A stretch of 64,000 bases of DNA from Acidobacteriota bacterium. GTDB lineage: Bacteria > Acidobacteriota > Thermoanaerobaculia > Gp7-AA8. The position numbers were made by a program, and so were the translations under genes. Numbering within the stretch: position 1 is the first letter of the stretch; every line of letters begins with the position of its first letter. Positions 6,923 to 17,129 of this stretch are shown piece by piece. The notes under the pieces were generated by a model. That model was not told where the DNA came from and made no database searches. It was given only the letters and a program-made list of their open reading frames with translations. The stretch covers positions 1 through 64,000 of the forward strand of contig JAJXWV010000007.1 in NCBI GenBank assembly GCA_021781455.1, read 5' to 3'.

Positions 6923-8716
<1,794 letters not shown>

Positions 8717-8738
8717 TTCACCTCCATCGGGAGGTGCC

Positions 8739-9410
8739 ATGCGATCTTCCAAAGCAGTCGCTCCGATCTTTACAGCCATGATCCTCGTCGGTGCCGCCGC
8801 CCAGGCCGCGCACATCGACATGAAGGACCCTCGCCGCGCTCTCGGGCGCGAAGACGACGTCCGCGTCGATGCCCAGCTCCTTCGGGATACCGTATCCTCC
8901 AGCTCGCCCATCTCCGTCACCTACCGGGTCCAGAATCTCAGCTCCGGCTGGATCGCCCTGGCGGACAAGGTCGCCACGACCGACTTCGACGCCGAAACCC
9001 GCACGATCACCGTGGCCATCGGGGCGGAGGTGCCCAAAGACGGCGTCCTGCCGCACCTGGTGCTGATCGCGCCGGGCGAAAAGAAGACCTTCAGCACCGG
9101 CGTCACCCCGCACGTGGCAGCGCCGAACGCCGGTTCTCACTTTGCCAACGTGCCGAAGTACGTCCAGATCACGGTGAACTTCCTCCGCGACATCAATCCG
9201 TTCAAGGAGCTGATCGCCAGGCAGGCTGCCACTCCGTCGCCTGTGATCTCGCTCTCGGACAAGCAGTTCGACCAGTGGCTGCAGAGCAACGACTCGGTGG
9301 TCCTGAACTCGTTGCCGATCACTTGGAACGGCAGCGGCGGCGATCGCAACGACATGCCGGACGCGGACCAGGAGGCCCCTCCGGATCGAGCGTGGACTGG
9401 CGGCAGCTGA
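8739..9410 (+). CDS. Secreted protein of unknown function (paralogue of the next gene)
   Basis: A 223-residue protein with a signal peptide (about residues 1-23, AQA-A cleavage) and a good GGGAGG ribosome site. The mature part reads like a single beta-rich domain, with the pattern DVRVDAQLL, ISVTYRVQNLSS, ETRTITVAIGAEVP and PHLVLIAPGEKKTFS. The following gene repeats the same pattern, so the two are diverged tandem duplicates. I do not recognise a named family. The phrase about balanced positive and negative states, as in Ig-like chaperone-usher or DUF-type beta sandwiches, is only a structural guess. Confidence 0.75.
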   Translation: MRSSKAVAPIFTAMILVGAAAQAAHIDMKDPRRALGREDDVRVDAQLLRDTVSSSSPISVTYRVQNLSSGWIALADKVATTDFDAETRTITVAIGAEVPKDGVLPHLVLIAPGEKKTFSTGVTPHVAAPNAGSHFANVPKYVQITVNFLRDINPFKELIARQAATPSPVISLSDKQFDQWLQSNDSVVLNSLPITWNGSGGDRNDMPDADQEAPPDRAWTGGS

Positions 9411-9536
9411 GAGTAGAGCGCCCGCGCTCTCGATTTGCGACCTGGAGCCGACGGGCCGAAAGCGCTCCCGAGGTCTCTCCATGGGGGCGCGAATTTGAAA
9501 GGCGGTCTCGGCGTTGGCGTTCTCGGGAGGACGCCC

Positions 9537-10181
9537 TTGAGACTCTCTCAGCGTTTCGCCTTCGCCGTTGCGATCCTGCTCCTGGTCGGTTGTGCGACGA
9601 CCCGGCCGGTGGACATGAGCCAGCCGCGGCGGCTGGTCGGGACCGAGAACGGAGTGCGTGTCGATGCCCTGGTTGTCACCGAGCAGTTGTCGCCCTCCTC
9701 GTCGGTCGCTATCTCCTACGACATCACCAACGAGCGCTCAGTTCCGATCGCGGTCGCCGATCTGGTTCCGGAGTCGTCGTACGACCCGGAGACTAGAACC
9801 GTGACCGTCACGTTCGGCTCGGAAGTGCCCGGCTACTCGTTCCTGCCTCGCCTGCTGCTCATCCCCGCCGGCGCGAAGAAGAGTTTCAGCTCGCGCGCCG
9901 TCGTCAACGTACGGGCAATCGGCAGCTCGGTAGCGGGCAGCTTCGGCAGGTTCCCCAACGGCCTGCGCGTGAAGGTTCACTTCCTGACTGACCTGCAGCC
10001 CTTCTCCCCGCTGATCGGAATTCCAGAGAGAGCGCTCCACGACCCGAAGCTCGCCGACGCCCTCCTGCCGAAGTGGCTGGAACGGAACGAGACAATCATC
10101 ACGAACGTGCTGCCCATGCGCTGGGTGGGGCCGTTTGGCGGAGAAGACGATCCCGCGGCGGCGAGACGGCGCCAGCCGTAA
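9537..10181 (+). CDS. Lipoprotein of unknown function (paralogue of the previous gene)
   Basis: A 214-residue protein when started at TTG 9537, which has GGGAGGA five bases upstream and gives a clean lipoprotein signal ending LLLVGC (lipobox). An upstream start at 9435 is possible but adds a non-signal-like leader. The mature domain parallels its neighbour: VRVDALVVTEQL, VAISYDITNE, ETRTVTVTFGSEVP, PRLLLIPAGAKKSFS, then VHFLTDLQPFSPLIG. It is probably anchored in the outer membrane or periplasm. It ends before a bidirectional terminator. Confidence 0.75.
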   Translation: MRLSQRFAFAVAILLLVGCATTRPVDMSQPRRLVGTENGVRVDALVVTEQLSPSSSVAISYDITNERSVPIAVADLVPESSYDPETRTVTVTFGSEVPGYSFLPRLLLIPAGAKKSFSSRAVVNVRAIGSSVAGSFGRFPNGLRVKVHFLTDLQPFSPLIGIPERALHDPKLADALLPKWLERNETIITNVLPMRWVGPFGGEDDPAAARRRQP

Positions 10182-10203
10182 CGCGCTGTTTCGACTCCAA
10201 CAA

Positions 10204-10242
10204 AAAAGCGAGCGATGAGCCATCCGGCTCACGCTCGCTTTT
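10204..10242. terminator. Bidirectional intrinsic terminator
   Basis: AAAAGCGAGC and GCTCGCTTTT flank a second stem, GAGCC/GGCTC. The result is a near-perfect hairpin with A and T tracts on both sides. It sits between the plus-strand lipoprotein gene and the minus-strand STAS gene, so it can end both transcripts. Confidence 0.9.
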
Positions 10243-10260
10243 CGATCTCTGTCGGACGGA

Positions 10261-10596
10261 TTAGAAACTGCCTACGGCCTGCTGTTCGTTGTCGTAGACC
10301 TCGAACACGGTGATGAGCTGGGTGACGTGGAGCAGCTCATTCAGCTTGGCCGGAAGGTGAAGCAGCTTCAGCTTGCCGCCGCGGTTCGTGACGGTGGTGT
10401 AAGACCCGACGAGCTCACCGATGCCGGACGAGTCGATGGTCGTTACACCGCTCATGTCGAGGAGGATTTTCGAGTTCCCCTGATTGACGGCGTTGCCGAT
10501 CACGTCGCGGAGCTGCTGGTCGCCCGAACCGATCGTGATCTTGCCGTCGAGCTTGATGACCTCGACTCCGTTCACATTGTGGGAAGTGGCTTTCAT
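10261..10596 (-). CDS. Anti-sigma-factor antagonist (STAS domain, RsbV/SpoIIAA-like)
   Basis: A 111-residue single STAS domain. The phosphorylation segment TTIDSSGIGEL contains the acceptor serine (Ser56 or Ser57). In the known system the dephosphorylated form binds an RsbW-type kinase and frees its target; phosphorylation by that kinase breaks the complex. The kinase-like gene is directly upstream on the same strand (68 nt gap), giving a complete two-protein partner-switch. The start has a GGAGAG ribosome site. What the kinase otherwise sequesters is not visible in this window. Confidence 0.92.
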   Translation of the reverse strand: MKATSHNVNGVEVIKLDGKITIGSGDQQLRDVIGNAVNQGNSKILLDMSGVTTIDSSGIGELVGSYTTVTNRGGKLKLLHLPAKLNELLHVTQLITVFEVYDNEQQAVGSF

Positions 10597-10664
10597 GTTC
10601 TCTCCTTTGGCGCTCGCTGCTCGCCGGTGCCGAGCCTGACGCGTACTGCGAGCGGATAGCTATA

Positions 10665-11117
10665 TCAGACTTTGCTGCTGGCGAGTCCGCTTCCTTTCGC
10701 CAGGTCCTTGGTCATGACCAGGGATGTTCCGCCGCTCGGGCTGAATGAGTACTGCACCGCGTCCATGAACGTCCTCATGTAGAAGATGCCGCGGCCGCTG
10801 GTCTTCATCAGGTTCTGCGGGTTGAGCGGGTCGCCGACCGCGGTGGGGTCGAATCCCTCTCCCTGGTCGAGAATGGTGATCTCCAGTTCCGATCCGCGGA
10901 GGGTGAACGTGGCGTAGACCTTTTTCGACACGTCGAGCTTATTGCCGTGCTTGATCGCATTCGCGACCGCCTCACGCACCGCCATGCCGATCCAATGAGA
11001 GCCGTCCTCATCGAGCCCTGCGTTTTCGCAGAGATGCTCTGCGATCACCTGCACGAGCTCGATGTTTTCAAACCGGCTGCTGATGGTGATCTCGATCCGC
11101 TCGCCGTCCCGTTCCAT
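10665..11117 (-). CDS. RsbW-like anti-sigma serine kinase (HATPase)
   Basis: A 150-residue GHKL ATPase of the RsbW/SpoIIAB class. N-box EAVANAIKHGN (about 49-59), G1 DQGEGFD (about 90) and G2 GRGIFYMRTF (about 108) are all present, so it should be an active kinase. It is paired with the STAS antagonist downstream. A TAGAAT hexamer lies 18 nt upstream of the ATG. It may act on a sigma factor or another partner encoded elsewhere; the ECF gene at 2.3 kb already has its own ZAS candidate. Confidence 0.92.
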   Translation of the reverse strand: MERDGERIEITISSRFENIELVQVIAEHLCENAGLDEDGSHWIGMAVREAVANAIKHGNKLDVSKKVYATFTLRGSELEITILDQGEGFDPTAVGDPLNPQNLMKTSGRGIFYMRTFMDAVQYSFSPSGGTSLVMTKDLAKGSGLASSKV

Positions 11118-11304
11118 TTGCTGAATCGTCGGCGCATTCTACGGAACGAAAAGCGAAGTTGCAAAGTGAATCGGGCCGGCCCACAGAAGCCGGTGACGAA
11201 TACCAAGACGCGTCTTCTCTTCAATTTGGGGCATGTCGCGGCCATCGCGGCCGTGCTCCGTTACTGATCGGAATGGCGGTCGAAGCCTCACCGTTGACCA
11301 GCGC

Positions 11305-12468
11305 ATGTTCAAGCGTCCCCTCGTCGCCGTCATCGCGCTGCTTCTGGGCGCCTCGACACTTCTGGCGTCGAATATCGACGACGACATCAGGGACGCGCAG
11401 CGCATTCGCGGCCTCGCGCTCCTCCACGCGGTCAGGATCGAGACGATCGACCGCAGCCAGCTGCCCGCTTATCTTCGCGCGCAGCTGGCCTCGTCGCTTC
11501 CATACTCATTCGACGAGTACGCGCGGATCCTCACGGCACTTCAGCTGATCGACAGCCCGGCGGCAGCTCGGCAATCGAAACTTCTCGATCTCCTGCAGCA
11601 GCAGGTGCTCGCTTTCTACGATCCGCTGACCCACACCTATTTCGCGATCCGCCAGCTGCCGGACGCGCTGCCTGCGGCGGCCAGAGAGCTTCCGCTCGAG
11701 GACGCCATCGCCGTTCACGAGCTGACGCACGCGCTCCAGGACCAGCATTTCGCCATCGGCAAGACGGACTACGCACTGCGCAACGACTGGGATGCCAGCC
11801 TCGCTCTTCACGCCCTCATCGAAGGCGACGCCACCCTGGTGATGATGGCCAGACTGGCCGCCGCGGCCGGCATGACGCTCGACGACCTCGTCAAGAACGA
11901 CATGATCGCGAACGCCCTCGGCAGTGCGGCCGCCCTGATGCGCTCGGACAACAAGGACACGGCGCGCTACTTTGTCGATGAGCTCGCATTCCCGTACGTG
12001 CAAGGCCTGCGACTCGTCGTTGACGCCTATCGCCGGGGCGGATGGGCGGCGATCAACCGCATGTACGCCGATCCGCCACGCTCCACGCGCGAGGTCATGC
12101 ATCCTGACGAGTATTTCGCCGGCCACCACACGCCTAACGCGTTCGGGCCGAAACCGCCGCTGACCGTTCCCGGCATCGTCAGCGTCGAGCACCTCGGCGA
12201 GTACCACTGGAACTTCCTCCTCGGCCCGGAGAGCTCGCGCGGATGGCTGGGCGACCGCGCCACCATCGTCGACGATGATTACTGCCAGCCCACCGTGTTG
12301 ATCGAGACGAAATGGGAGTCGCCCGAACGCGCCGCAGCGTTCCGGAAGGCGTATGTCGAATTCCTGCGCGCGCACAGTGTCGTGCCGGAGGTCTCCGTTC
12401 GCGGGAACGAGGTCGACGTCGCATACGGCGCGGATCCTGTGCTCATGGAAAGGTTCGTCACCCGATGA
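11305..12468 (+). CDS. Secreted HExxH metalloprotease-like protein
   Basis: A 387-residue protein with a signal peptide (about residues 1-22) if started at ATG 11305; the frame is open to 11233, but that start would bury the signal. Residues around 138-148 read HELTHALQDQH, a zincin HExxH motif plus further His, and a Glu-rich helix (LHALIEGDATLVMMARL) about 30 residues later could supply the third ligand, as in gluzincins. By inference it is a periplasmic or surface metalloprotease. The family name is not recognised with certainty. It overlaps the next small gene by ATGA. Confidence 0.78.
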   Translation: MFKRPLVAVIALLLGASTLLASNIDDDIRDAQRIRGLALLHAVRIETIDRSQLPAYLRAQLASSLPYSFDEYARILTALQLIDSPAAARQSKLLDLLQQQVLAFYDPLTHTYFAIRQLPDALPAAARELPLEDAIAVHELTHALQDQHFAIGKTDYALRNDWDASLALHALIEGDATLVMMARLAAAAGMTLDDLVKNDMIANALGSAAALMRSDNKDTARYFVDELAFPYVQGLRLVVDAYRRGGWAAINRMYADPPRSTREVMHPDEYFAGHHTPNAFGPKPPLTVPGIVSVEHLGEYHWNFLLGPESSRGWLGDRATIVDDDYCQPTVLIETKWESPERAAAFRKAYVEFLRAHSVVPEVSVRGNEVDVAYGADPVLMERFVTR

Positions 12469-12734
12469 TCGACGTCGACTACAGGACCCTCGTCACCGAC
12501 CTCGAAGAGGGGACGTTCCGGCAGAGGCTTGAAGAGGAGCTGGTGACCGGTTTCCAGGCCATTCGCGACTCCGGCGAGCGGCTGCCCACGGCTTCTCATT
12601 ACGCGTCGCAGATTGCCGAGATCATCAGCCGTGGCGCGCCGGTGCCGCTGGCGCCGGGAACCGCCTTCGACCTGTACCAGGAAATTCTTCTGGCGTGCGA
12701 GCAGGCGCGTGCCACGGTGCTGGGCGAAGAGTGA
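12465..12734 (+). CDS. Conserved-looking small protein of unknown function
   Basis: An 89-residue acidic, mostly helical protein. The ATG overlaps the stop codon of the HExxH gene (ATGA), so it is probably co-translated with it. No motif, signal or membrane segment is seen. The gap to selD (12735-12803) contains a short GTCATCCC/GGGATGAC inverted repeat at 12750-12777. Confidence 0.6.
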   Translation: MIDVDYRTLVTDLEEGTFRQRLEEELVTGFQAIRDSGERLPTASHYASQIAEIISRGAPVPLAPGTAFDLYQEILLACEQARATVLGEE

Positions 12735-12803
12735 GACGGAACGCCGCTCGTCATCCCTCGCGAAGCTCGGGATGACAGATTCGCAATTCGATACACTCCG
12801 CTC

Positions 12804-13874
12804 GTGCGCCACAGACTTCGTTCCTCGTATCCCCCCTTGTCGTCGTTCGCGACGACCGGCGGGTGAGCCTGCAAGCTGGGTCAGGATGACCTGCACACGC
12901 TCCTCTCCAAAATTCCTCTGCAGGAGGGAACGGGAGATCTTCTCGTCGGCCACGGCACGAGCGACGACGCGGCCGTCCTGCGCATCAGTGGCGACCTGGC
13001 CATCGCCCAGACCGTCGACTTCTTCACGCCCATCGTCGACGATCCTTTCCTGTTTGGCGCGATCGCAGCGGTGAACTCCGTCTCGGACATCTACGCCATG
13101 GGCGCCACGCCGATCCTCGGCCTGGCGATTGCGGCATTTCCGAGCGACAAACTCCCGCTGGAGATGCTTTCCGAGATTTTTCGGGGTGGCGCATCGAAGG
13201 CTATCGAAGCGGGATTCCCGATCGCCGGCGGCCACACGATCATCGACGAGGTTCCGAAATACGGCCTGGCGGTGACCGGGACGGTCTCGGTCGGAAAGCT
13301 GGTTCGCAATTCGACGGCGCACAGCGGTGACGCGCTCTACCTGACGAAGCCGATCGGCAACGGCATTCTGATCAGCCGCTACCGGGCGTACACGACGCGG
13401 AAGTTCCGGCGCGGACAGCCGCCGAGCCTCGACCAAGCGATCGACTGGATGCTGCGGCTGAATCGCGATGCCGCAACGGCGATGGTCGGCGCCAGCGCCA
13501 GCGCGGCAACCGATGTGACCGGCTATGGCCTCGTCGGACACCTTCTGGAGATGTGCGCCGGGGCAGGCATCGGTGCGGAGATCGCGGTGTCGAGCGTACC
13601 GCTTCTCACCGGCGTGCGTGAGGCGCTGGCGCGAGGCTTCATTCCCGCAGGCACGGAGCGCAACGTGACCTCGTTCCGTCCGCGGGTCCGCTTGTCCGTT
13701 CCTGAAAGTGAGTTCAAATTGATGTGTGATGCGCAAACGAGTGGCGGGCTGCTGATCGCGATCGCTCCCGATCGCGAGGCGGATCTCGAGGCTCGTTTTC
13801 GCGAGAGCGGCCTGTTCTATGCAAAGGTTGGCCGTATGACGGACGAGAAGGGTGTGGTCGCCCTCGTCCCATGA
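12804..13874 (+). CDS. selD: Selenide, water dikinase SelD, selenocysteine-containing (in-frame UGA)
   Basis: SelD makes selenophosphate from selenide and ATP, the selenium donor for Sec-tRNA. Read from GTG 12804 through a TGA at 12864-12866, the frame gives 356 residues that match SelD throughout. The UGA is codon 21 in the context G-G-U-A-C-K-L; it aligns with the catalytic Cys of the E. coli motif G-C-G-C-K and is followed by the essential Lys (Lys24). Downstream come LLVGHGTSDDAAVL, TVDFFTPIVDDPF and the GHTI glycine-rich segment. The UGA hides the N-terminus: the part without stops begins only at GTG 13071. A stem-loop that fits a bacterial SECIS follows the UGA. TACACT lies 6 nt before the GTG and no Shine-Dalgarno is seen, so the mRNA may be leaderless. 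Confidence 0.93.
12877..12893 (+). promoter_or_regulatory. Putative bacterial SECIS hairpin of selD
   Basis: GGTCA-GGA-TGACC forms a perfect 5-bp stem with a GGA loop. It is extended by two G-U pairs and its loop starts 17 nt after the UGA codon. Bacterial SECIS elements lie just downstream of the Sec codon within the coding sequence and carry G in the first loop positions; this hairpin meets both conditions. Confidence 0.7.
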
Positions 13875-13888
13875 GGAGATGACGATCG

Positions 13889-14305
13889 ATGCCGTACTGC
13901 CCGAAGTGCAAACAGGAGTTTGGTGCAGACGTCCGGGAGTGCCCCGACGACAAGGTGGTCCTGGTAAGCGAGCTTCCCTTCCAGACGGTCTCCGGCGACG
14001 ACGCAACCTGGGTCGAGATTGCCAGCACCGGCAGCGATGATGAGGCCCGGCTGCTGAAGGGATTCCTGGAGGGTGAGGGCATTCCTGCTCAGATCGAGAA
14101 CGTGAAGTTCAGCATGGAGCCGATCAACTTCGGGATCATGGGAGACATCCGCGTGTATGTCGATGCGGATGACGAACAGCGCGCCATCGAGCTGCTCCAC
14201 CGGCGAGAGGCCGAGTACGATCGGCTCGACGACGACGGTGAGAACGTCGTGACCGACGAAGGCACCGCCGATATCGCCGACGACGCCGAAGCCGAAAAGG
14301 TATGA
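13889..14305 (+). CDS. Zinc-ribbon plus DUF2007-like protein
   Basis: A 138-residue protein with an N-terminal CPKC...CPDD half-ribbon, followed by a compact domain (ARLLKGFLEGEGIPAQIEN ... IRVYVDADDEQRAIELL, about 48-105) resembling the DUF2007 putative signal-transducing domain, which folds like a small ferredoxin. The last 30 residues are acidic and probably disordered. A GAGGAG ribosome site lies in the selD stop region. It overlaps the next gene by ATGA. Function unknown. Confidence 0.7.
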   Translation: MPYCPKCKQEFGADVRECPDDKVVLVSELPFQTVSGDDATWVEIASTGSDDEARLLKGFLEGEGIPAQIENVKFSMEPINFGIMGDIRVYVDADDEQRAIELLHRREAEYDRLDDDGENVVTDEGTADIADDAEAEKV

Positions 14306-14901
14306 GCGATCTTCCGCCGAACGCACCACCGCCAGGGCCGCAGGTCGCCGAGACCACCCTGCCGCGCTGGGTTCCCATCCTCATCGGCGCCATTCTCATC
14401 GTCATGGCGGCGCTGGCGGTGTTCACCGGCCTTCGCTACCGGACCAACACCACCCTGGTGTCGATCGTCCACCCGCGCCACAAGGTTCAGGAGCCCGCCA
14501 CGCCCGCCCCGCCCGGTGAGCCGGAAGCGGGAGCGTCGCTGATCTTTCCGGGCGCTTCGGGCGACAACGCCCCCACTGCCCACCCGCCCGTGAGCGGTCA
14601 GGCGCGCGCCGTGATCACAGGAAGCGGCGAGTCGATCGACGCCAGTGTGCGCATCTGGGCGCGGCGCGGCATGCAGCTGAGTGTGGTGCCGGACGACGCG
14701 GTGGTTTACGTCAACGACGTGGCCATCGGACAGGCCAGGCAGTTCAACTCGCCCGACGAGATCTACGACTTCCCGGCCGCGGGGAGCTACACGGTCAAGC
14801 TGACCGCACCCGGCTACAAGGACCGTTCGTACGTCGTGACCGCCAGCGACACGGCCAAGGCCGAGATCGCCCGCATCGAGGCGAAGCTCGACAAGCAGTA
14901 G
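14302..14901 (+). CDS. Single-pass membrane protein with PEGA-like C-terminal domain
   Basis: A 199-residue protein: proline-rich cytoplasmic N-terminus, one transmembrane helix (about residues 24-44), a low-complexity Pro/Ala linker and a C-terminal beta domain (LSVVPDDAVVYVNDVAIGQA ... AAGSYTVKLTAPGYKDRSY) typical of PEGA domains found in surface proteins. It is probably exported or periplasmic-facing. It is translationally coupled to the DUF2007-like gene. A GGGCGCAG/CTGCGCCC hairpin follows its stop codon at 14902. Confidence 0.7.
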   Translation: MSDLPPNAPPPGPQVAETTLPRWVPILIGAILIVMAALAVFTGLRYRTNTTLVSIVHPRHKVQEPATPAPPGEPEAGASLIFPGASGDNAPTAHPPVSGQARAVITGSGESIDASVRIWARRGMQLSVVPDDAVVYVNDVAIGQARQFNSPDEIYDFPAAGSYTVKLTAPGYKDRSYVVTASDTAKAEIARIEAKLDKQ

Positions 14902-14976
14902 GGCGCAGCCGCGCTGCGCCCCGCGCCTGCATGCTGGCTCGCGCAGACCGACCGTTTGTCGCGCTGCACGTGAAAA

Positions 14977-14998
14977 GGGCTCCGGTTCCCCGGAGCCC
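14977..14998 (-). terminator. Intrinsic terminator of the EF-G paralogue
   Basis: GGGCTCCGG-TTCC-CCGGAGCCC makes a perfect 9-bp stem, followed on the minus strand by TTTT. It lies about 30 nt past the stop codon of the minus-strand gene. Between the two, GGTCTGC is repeated three times (15003-15024). Confidence 0.85.
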
Positions 14999-15026
14999 CT
15001 GCGGTCTGCGGTCTGCGGTCTGCGCT

Positions 15027-17129
15027 CTAGTGCGCCGCCGCCTGCTGCTGTTCTTCCTTCTTCTTCTTCGCTTCCGTGATGATCTTCTCCTGCAGGTTGC
15101 GCGGCACTTCCTCGTAGTGCGAGTACTCCATGTGGAAGCTTCCCCGGCCCTGCGTGATCGAGCGAAGGGTCGAACCGTAGGTCAGCATCTCCGACATCGG
15201 CACGCGTGCGTGGACCGTTTGCATGTCCTCCTCGGCGTCGACGCCCTCGACACGGCCGCGGCGGGAGTTGAGATCGCCCATCAGGTCGCCGATGTACTCA
15301 GCCGGCGCGCTGATGTTCACGTGCATGATCGGCTCGAGAAGCGTCGGCTTGCCCTGTTCCATGCCCTGCTGGAAGGCGAGCGACCCGGCGATCTTGAACG
15401 CCATTTCCGAAGAGTCGACGTCGTGATACTGGCCGTCCTTGAGGCGCACGCGGAAGTCCACCACCGGGTAGCCGGCCAGGAAGCCCTTGACGCGCGCTTC
15501 CTGGATGCCCTTTTCCACGGCCGGGATGTACTGGCGCGGGATCGAGCCGCCGAAGATCTCGTCGACGAATTCGAAGTCGCCGCCTCGCGGCAGCGGCTCC
15601 ATGGTGATCTTGCAGTCGGCGAACTGACCGTGGCCGCCGGACTGCTTCTTGTGGCGGCCATGCGCGTCGGATGATTTGGTGATCGTTTCGCGGTACGGCA
15701 CCTTCGGCGGATGCAGGATCACGTCGACGCCGTACTTCTTCTTCAGCTTGGCCACGACGATCTCGACGTGGAGCTGCCCCTGACCGCTGATCAGGAACTC
15801 CTTGGTCTGTTCGTCGCGCTGGAACTTGATGGTGGGGTCTTCTTCGATGACGCGGGCGATGGCGCTGGAGAGCTTGTCTTCGTCGCCGCGGGCCTTGGCC
15901 TCGACGGCGAAGGCGATCGCGGCCTCCGGATAGTCGAGGTGCTTGATGACGATGGAATGTTCTCTGGTGGCCAGAGTGTCGCCGGTGCGCACGTCTTTCA
16001 GCTTCGCCACGGCGCCGATGTCGCCGGCCTTGAGCTCGCTGACCGGCACCTGCTGCTTGCCCTGCAGAACCTGGAGCTTGCCGACGCGCTCCTCGTGATC
16101 GCGCGTGGTGTTCCAGTAGGTGGTGTCGGACTTGAACGTGCCCGAGTAAACGCGGAACAGCGACACGCGTCCGGAAAAGGGATCGGAGAAGGTCTTGAAG
16201 ACCAGCGCCGCCGGGAACGCTTCGGCACGGCGGTCGAAGGTGATGGGCTGTCCCTTCGGGTCGAGGCCCTCCACGGTCTTGCTCGTGTCCGCTGCAGGAA
16301 ACAGCGCCACGAAATTGTCGAGGATGGGCTGTGCGCCGATGTTGTGCGAGGCAGAGGCGAAGAGGACGGGGAAGATCTGGTTATGCGCCACTTCGCGCTG
16401 CAGCCCTTCCATGAGCTCTTCCTGCGAGAGGCCGCCCTGCTCGAAAAACTTCTCCATGAGGGTGTCGTCACCCTCGGCGACTTTCTCGATGAGCTTCTCG
16501 CGCCACTCGGTGGCGGAGGCCTTCATCTTCTCGGGGATGTCGACGGTCTCGAACTTTCCGGAGGCGTCGCTGGCGTAGCTGTACGCCTTCATGGCCACGA
16601 GATCGATGACGCCGCTGAAGTCCTTTTCCTCTCCGATGGGGAGCTGGATCGGGACGACGTTCTTCCCGAATTTTTTCTGCAGAGACTCGAGCGTGCGTGA
16701 GGAGGAGGCGCGCTCGCGATCCATCTTGTTGACGATGATCAGGCGCGGAAGCCCGAACTCGTCAGCGAACTTCCACATCTTCTCGGTGTTCACCTCGACG
16801 CCGGTCACTCCGCTGACCACCAGCGCGGCGGCATCGGCGACACGGATGGCCGTCTTCGCCTCCATCTGGAAAATGCCGAAGCCGGGAGTGTCGAGGAGAT
16901 TGACCTTGGTGTCTTTCCACTCCGCGAAGGCGACCGCGCTGGAGATGGAATGCTTACGCTCGATTTCGTCCGGATCGAAATCGGTGGTGGTAGTGCCGTC
17001 TTCGATCCGCCCGAGTCGCGTCGTGGCGCCGGCAGTGAACAGCAGTTGCGACACCAGCATCGTCTTACCGGTGTCGTTGTGACCGACCAAGACCACGTTG
17101 CGGATCTCGGAACCCGAATAGACTTTCAT
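15027..17129 (-). CDS. Elongation factor G paralogue (EF-G2-like translational GTPase)
   Basis: A 700-residue EF-G-family GTPase with all five domains. The P-loop is GHNDTGKT (16-23) and the G4 motif NKMD (134-137). The G3 motif reads DTPGF (80-84), so the His that activates water in canonical EF-G (DTPGH) is Phe here. Divergent switch residues and the VEGVDAEEDMQTVHARVP region place it with the second, non-canonical EF-G group (EF-G-2) rather than with the str-operon fusA. It stands alone, convergent to nothing but a terminator, and is not next to rpsL or tuf. Slow or altered GTP hydrolysis is an inference from the motif. Confidence 0.9.
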   Translation of the reverse strand: MKVYSGSEIRNVVLVGHNDTGKTMLVSQLLFTAGATTRLGRIEDGTTTTDFDPDEIERKHSISSAVAFAEWKDTKVNLLDTPGFGIFQMEAKTAIRVADAAALVVSGVTGVEVNTEKMWKFADEFGLPRLIIVNKMDRERASSSRTLESLQKKFGKNVVPIQLPIGEEKDFSGVIDLVAMKAYSYASDASGKFETVDIPEKMKASATEWREKLIEKVAEGDDTLMEKFFEQGGLSQEELMEGLQREVAHNQIFPVLFASASHNIGAQPILDNFVALFPAADTSKTVEGLDPKGQPITFDRRAEAFPAALVFKTFSDPFSGRVSLFRVYSGTFKSDTTYWNTTRDHEERVGKLQVLQGKQQVPVSELKAGDIGAVAKLKDVRTGDTLATREHSIVIKHLDYPEAAIAFAVEAKARGDEDKLSSAIARVIEEDPTIKFQRDEQTKEFLISGQGQLHVEIVVAKLKKKYGVDVILHPPKVPYRETITKSSDAHGRHKKQSGGHGQFADCKITMEPLPRGGDFEFVDEIFGGSIPRQYIPAVEKGIQEARVKGFLAGYPVVDFRVRLKDGQYHDVDSSEMAFKIAGSLAFQQGMEQGKPTLLEPIMHVNISAPAEYIGDLMGDLNSRRGRVEGVDAEEDMQTVHARVPMSEMLTYGSTLRSITQGRGSFHMEYSHYEEVPRNLQEKIITEAKKKKEEQQQAAAH

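Follow-up and report, generated by a model that had tools for sequence, protein, structure and literature searches.

A survey from 2006 (PMC1794560) counted 38 selenocysteine (Sec) containing SelD proteins, named FdhA and SelD as the selenoproteins most widespread in bacteria, and already included four from Acidobacteria. Three known selenoprotein genes are given for an acidobacterium other than ours in a tool paper from 2025 (PMC12013277). A paper on selenocysteine in Thermoanaerobaculia was not found in the open-licence PMC literature. In the Sec-containing SelD (SPS2) proteins Sec takes the position of the active-site Cys in the N-terminal loop, and a bacterial SECIS element (bSECIS) lies directly downstream of its codon. 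The selD gene described here, located in a 64,000-nucleotide stretch of DNA from an Acidobacteriota genome (the window), appears to share both properties and would not differ mechanistically; its peculiarities are the origin from Thermoanaerobaculia and a predicted leaderless start. A Sec-containing SelD is a long-known kind of gene, and the comparative evidence that here confirms the predicted one is unusually clean.

The host genome (4.88 Mb) is assembled in 90 contigs, and the window lies on contig C30. Once the TGA at 12864 is passed, the region 12804-13874 of the forward strand forms one single frame, the rest of which is open (Table 1). The product matched the curated equivalog TIGR00476 with 361.3 bits (cut-off 125) and NF002098 with 334.9 bits (cut-off 299), and both Pfam domains, PF00586 (AIRS) and PF02769 (AIRS_C), were present. 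The nearest solved relative by sequence is the Cys-containing SelD of PDB entry 3u0o, which gave a nearly full-length alignment of 253 bits. In this alignment U21 and K24 of the GG-U-A-C-K-L motif fall on the Cys and the Lys of the GAGCGCK loop, thus the predicted Sec of the window gene occupies the place where the solved protein has a Cys. We take these two loop residues to be the catalytic ones, the Lys presumably being essential in SelD. The original prediction, made from the letters of the window, had described selD as a selenoprotein gene with an in-frame UGA at codon 21, this motif aligned with the catalytic Cys and essential Lys, and a stem-loop with a GGA loop just behind it; all of its coordinates were found to be right, the core arms of the stem being extended by two G-U pairs. 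The locus is almost certainly an intact selenoprotein gene that codes for a SelD with Sec at position 21.

Table 1. Positions of the selD features in the window.
Feature	Position	Strand	Remarks
selD, selenide water dikinase (selenophosphate synthetase)	12804-13874	+	356 aa; GTG start, TGA stop; predicted Sec at position 21
selD GTG start codon	12804-12806	+	
In-frame TGA, codon 21, predicted to be read as selenocysteine	12864-12866	+	TGA in 18 of 19 genes; active-site Cys position of 3u0o
Cys codon of selD	12870-12872	+	
Lys 24 codon, counterpart of the essential SelD Lys	12873-12875	+	Alignment to 3u0o
selD stop codon	13872-13874	+	
TANNNT box TACACT, predicted -10 element	12792-12797	+	12 nt before the selD start codon
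Predicted bacterial SECIS hairpin	12877-12893	+	Core stem GGTCA/TGACC, two outer G-U pairs; it folds, its codons are frozen and paired changes occur elsewhere
bSECIS core arms; loop GGA	12879-12883 and 12887-12891; 12884-12886	+	

As the original prediction had also foreseen, standard gene calling would lose the active site, since without a Sec reading of the TGA the first ATG, GTG or TTG of the frame is the GTG at 13071. Mechanical ORF finding yields exactly this, a short SelD-like product that is started at a downstream codon and lacks the active-site loop. That translation really starts downstream appears extremely improbable, because 13071 is codon 90 and falls within the AIRS domain (from residue 54 on), and because the codons upstream evolve as protein. 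The latter was established on a comparison set of 19 selD genes, consisting of the window gene and 18 relatives (17 of the same family, one of them of the same genus, and one of the same order). Over the 13 codons that precede the UGA, the relatives mismatched the window at rates of 0.158, 0.030 and 0.483 at the first, second and third codon positions, a pattern that indicates purifying selection on the protein; the corresponding values for the 20 codons upstream of the GTG were 0.733, 0.761 and 0.756, which is random. The homologues do not begin downstream of the UGA, one of the two points on which the original prediction could have been contradicted: their start codon (GTG or ATG) is conserved and the 17-20 residues preceding the UGA codon are kept. 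The TANNNT box in front of the start, discussed below, is likewise conserved and argues in the same direction.

Codon 21 was TGA in 18 of these 19 genes, and TGC in genome G010 only. In an assembly of 90 contigs a single wrong base could create a stop, so that the TGA might be taken for a real one, left by an assembly error or by the decay of the gene into a pseudogene, with no full-length SelD produced. The presence of the same TGA in 17 of the 18 separately assembled relatives speaks against this, as do the open remainder of the frame and the fact that no other SelD over the cut-off was listed in a host genome that has selA, selB and tRNA-Sec. We consider a real stop as having only the slightest probability, and continue with the Sec-containing SelD.

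In order to follow this codon across the class, 91 SelD loci were collected (those of G061, G065, G076, G080 and G082 were taken in by a wider motif), from which G022 was dropped, its SelD being cut by the contig start and lacking the N-terminus. Among the 90 genes with readable N-terminus the codon was TGA in 56, TGC in 28 and TGT in 6 cases, thus Cys was the sole alternative to the predicted Sec. A further 14 SelD matches over the cut-off, 13 of them from genus g19 of family f7 and one the partial G050:C313, were left out of this count; none of them was listed with an in-frame stop.

The hairpin downstream of the UGA comprises five Watson-Crick and two G-U pairs around the GGA loop, which is 17 nt from the UGA, and the calculated energy of 12867-12902 is -10.4 kcal/mol. 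PMC13188914 limits bSECIS elements to a loop of 3-9 nt, a stem of 4-16 bp, a G in the first two loop positions, a distance of 16-37 nt from the UGA and a minimum free energy of at most -7.5. The hairpin is within every one of these published limits, and with its 3-nt loop, G first, its stem of 5-7 bp and its spacing it shows no difference from the consensus as given there. Its folding energy was ordinary (z -0.20 for 36 nt and -0.98 for 43 nt); for the 19-nt core z was -2.17, and 3 of 200 shuffles were equally stable. Among 5000 synonymous recodings 186 contained an equally good hairpin and 1074 some bSECIS-like hairpin. Folding energy was therefore rejected as too weak an evidence for a SECIS, and the hairpin was judged by its conservation, which is what exceeds chance here.

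The four codons GGT CAG GAT GAC just 3' of the TGA, spelling GGTCA-GGA-TGACC, were identical in all 18 Sec genes of the comparison set. Synonymous diversity in the nine codons after the UGA was 0.28 of expectation, compared with 0.81 gene-wide, and only one in 100,000 random codon sets was as low. Across the class, 51 of 56 Sec genes had a stem of four or more pairs at 16-17 nt, versus 3 of 34 Cys genes, although these genes are related and the counts are not independent. Both sides of the stem change their letters together, being GGTCA/TGACC in the window, GGTCC/GGACC in family f9 and GAGCCC/GGGCTC in f12, always 17 nt from the UGA. The five Sec genes without a stem at 16-17 nt belong to G050, G056, G059, G062 and G096, and in the three that were examined (G059, G062, G096) another candidate hairpin was found 32-33 nt from the UGA. 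Elsewhere in selD, a stretch near the 3' end (about 13800-13824, alignment codons about 325-333) has equally few synonymous changes, with only five countable codons.

The relatives in which Cys replaces Sec are informative about the function of the hairpin. The SelD tree required 6 changes of the Sec/Cys label, compared with a shuffled mean of 27.5. Within the Sec clade G010 groups with G016 as its sister (support 100/89), and its nesting in the Sec family indicates a recent change from Sec to Cys. The same residues are coded there by GGG CAG GAC GAT, and the three synonymous changes break the hairpin. The Cys relative G032 is also without the stem, which is present in its Sec neighbours G038 and G041. 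G070, another Cys gene, adjoins the Sec gene of G090 in the tree (98/95) and retains the stem, and is in this respect like the remnant SECIS elements after Sec-to-Cys changes described in PMC1794560, from which G010 and G032 differ by having lost it. These lineages kept the protein, and in two cases the hairpin was lost. The loss in G010 and G032 amounts to a natural experiment and makes a strong comparative case for a role of the hairpin in the service of the UGA.

The original prediction implied a working Sec system elsewhere in the genome, and its genes, whose absence would have spoken against that prediction, were all found: selA (472 bits) and selB (370 bits), both confirmed as the best family, and a tRNA-Sec with UCA anticodon (71 bits). 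A search that covered family PF00384 showed that the host has a second selenoprotein, formate dehydrogenase-N alpha (FdhA; G000:C23:94915-96102, locus L211), with an in-frame TGA at ARVUHGPTVASL and a TIGR01553 match of 1318 bits. The selenouridine synthase gene mnmH, looked for as another selenophosphate consumer, had no match at E 0.001 in the host genome. Since the identity of residue 21 is predicted from the sequence, one might think of a UGA read outside the Sec system, by near-cognate insertion of an ordinary amino acid. The presence of the Sec machinery, the keeping of a SECIS-like hairpin mainly where the codon is TGA and the replacement of Sec by Cys alone among the 90 class members make such a reading most improbable. 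Sec is thus the preferred residue at codon 21, and from what is known of these families it would be inserted there and take part in catalysis. SelA would charge the tRNA-Sec (UCA), drawing the selenium from the selenophosphate that SelD itself makes, and SelB would bind the hairpin 17 nt past the UGA and deliver Sec at codon 21. In the enzyme Sec21 and Lys24 would sit in the active-site loop, where selenophosphate would be made from selenide and ATP, and this compound would serve at least two Sec proteins, formate dehydrogenase and SelD.

In 100 genomes of the class, host included, SelD was matched in 99 and SelA in 97, of which 93 passed the cut-off; a tRNA-Sec scoring at least 59 bits was counted in 88. 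These numbers indicate that the Sec trait is general in the class. G001, G002, G003, G004, G006 and G013 have a Sec-type SelD and a selA match, and tRNA-Sec was not recognisable in their assemblies. The search made use of DNA similarity, of the Rfam model (applied to four of these genomes) and of a pilD-like neighbour gene (all six), and ARAGORN found ordinary tRNAs only on the loci fetched from these genomes. The G002 contig stops 173 nt past the pilD-like gene; in the window genome the tRNA-Sec is 181 nt from that gene, and an assembly break is the likely explanation for G002. In G006 the pilD-like gene was found and the locus around it was without tRNA-Sec, and in G001, G003, G004 and G013 this gene was not found. 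For these six family genomes, assembly gaps or a divergent tRNA-Sec are the candidate readings. A selB over the cut-off was not found in G001.

Some further observations were made on these genomes. In G004 and G013, which belong to one genus, the C-terminal half of SelB is a poorer fit to the SelB model. The neighbourhood of lepA, selD and an EF-G-like gene (6923-17129 of the window) seems to be kept in G001, G003, G004 and G013, where GTPase matches of that kind share the contig with selD. In family f4 some genomes encode a Cys form of SelD in addition to a stand-alone Sec form (locus L019 of G035, and L020-L023); the Cys form of L019 (322-2529) follows a class V aminotransferase (cysteine-desulfurase-like) domain, to which it is fused. 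A Cys-type SelD of f5 is fused behind a Se_S_carrier (PF11823) domain in L044 (1216-2514) of G048.

Upstream of selD, 18 of the 19 genes of the comparison set have a TANNNT box that begins 12-14 nt ahead of the start codon, and the 19th (G008) has, by eye, TACCAT at -13 of its conserved GTG. The frequency of TANNNT at random window positions was 0.0066, and 6 of the window's 39 long ORFs carry a comparable box ahead of one of their five most upstream start codons. None of the Shine-Dalgarno motifs GGAG, GAGG and AGGA occurred in the 28 nt preceding the selD GTG. Zheng and colleagues take a TA-like signal located some 12 bp ahead of the start as the mark of leaderless genes (PMC3160421), and selD shares with the genes described there the box at -12 and the absence of a Shine-Dalgarno motif. 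Judging from the box, the selD mRNA is likely leaderless, with transcription beginning at or next to the GTG. Among the titles listed from the open-licence PMC literature, none dealt with a leaderless bacterial selenoprotein. It is conceivable, but rather doubtful, that leaderless selD mRNA is family-wide, with 60 nt between the 5' end and the Sec UGA, and that the supply of SelD could in this way respond to selenium. Our guess for a feedback role is that selenium scarcity would stop the translation of selD after codon 20. Three points go beyond the original prediction: the second selenoprotein, the leaderless start predicted for selD, and the decay of the hairpin in relatives that changed from Sec to Cys.

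Automatic annotation would cut the selD of the window and those of its relatives to a stub without the active site. Such mis-annotation would conceal the selenium pathway in a group of soil bacteria, nearly all of which have SelD, SelA and tRNA-Sec.
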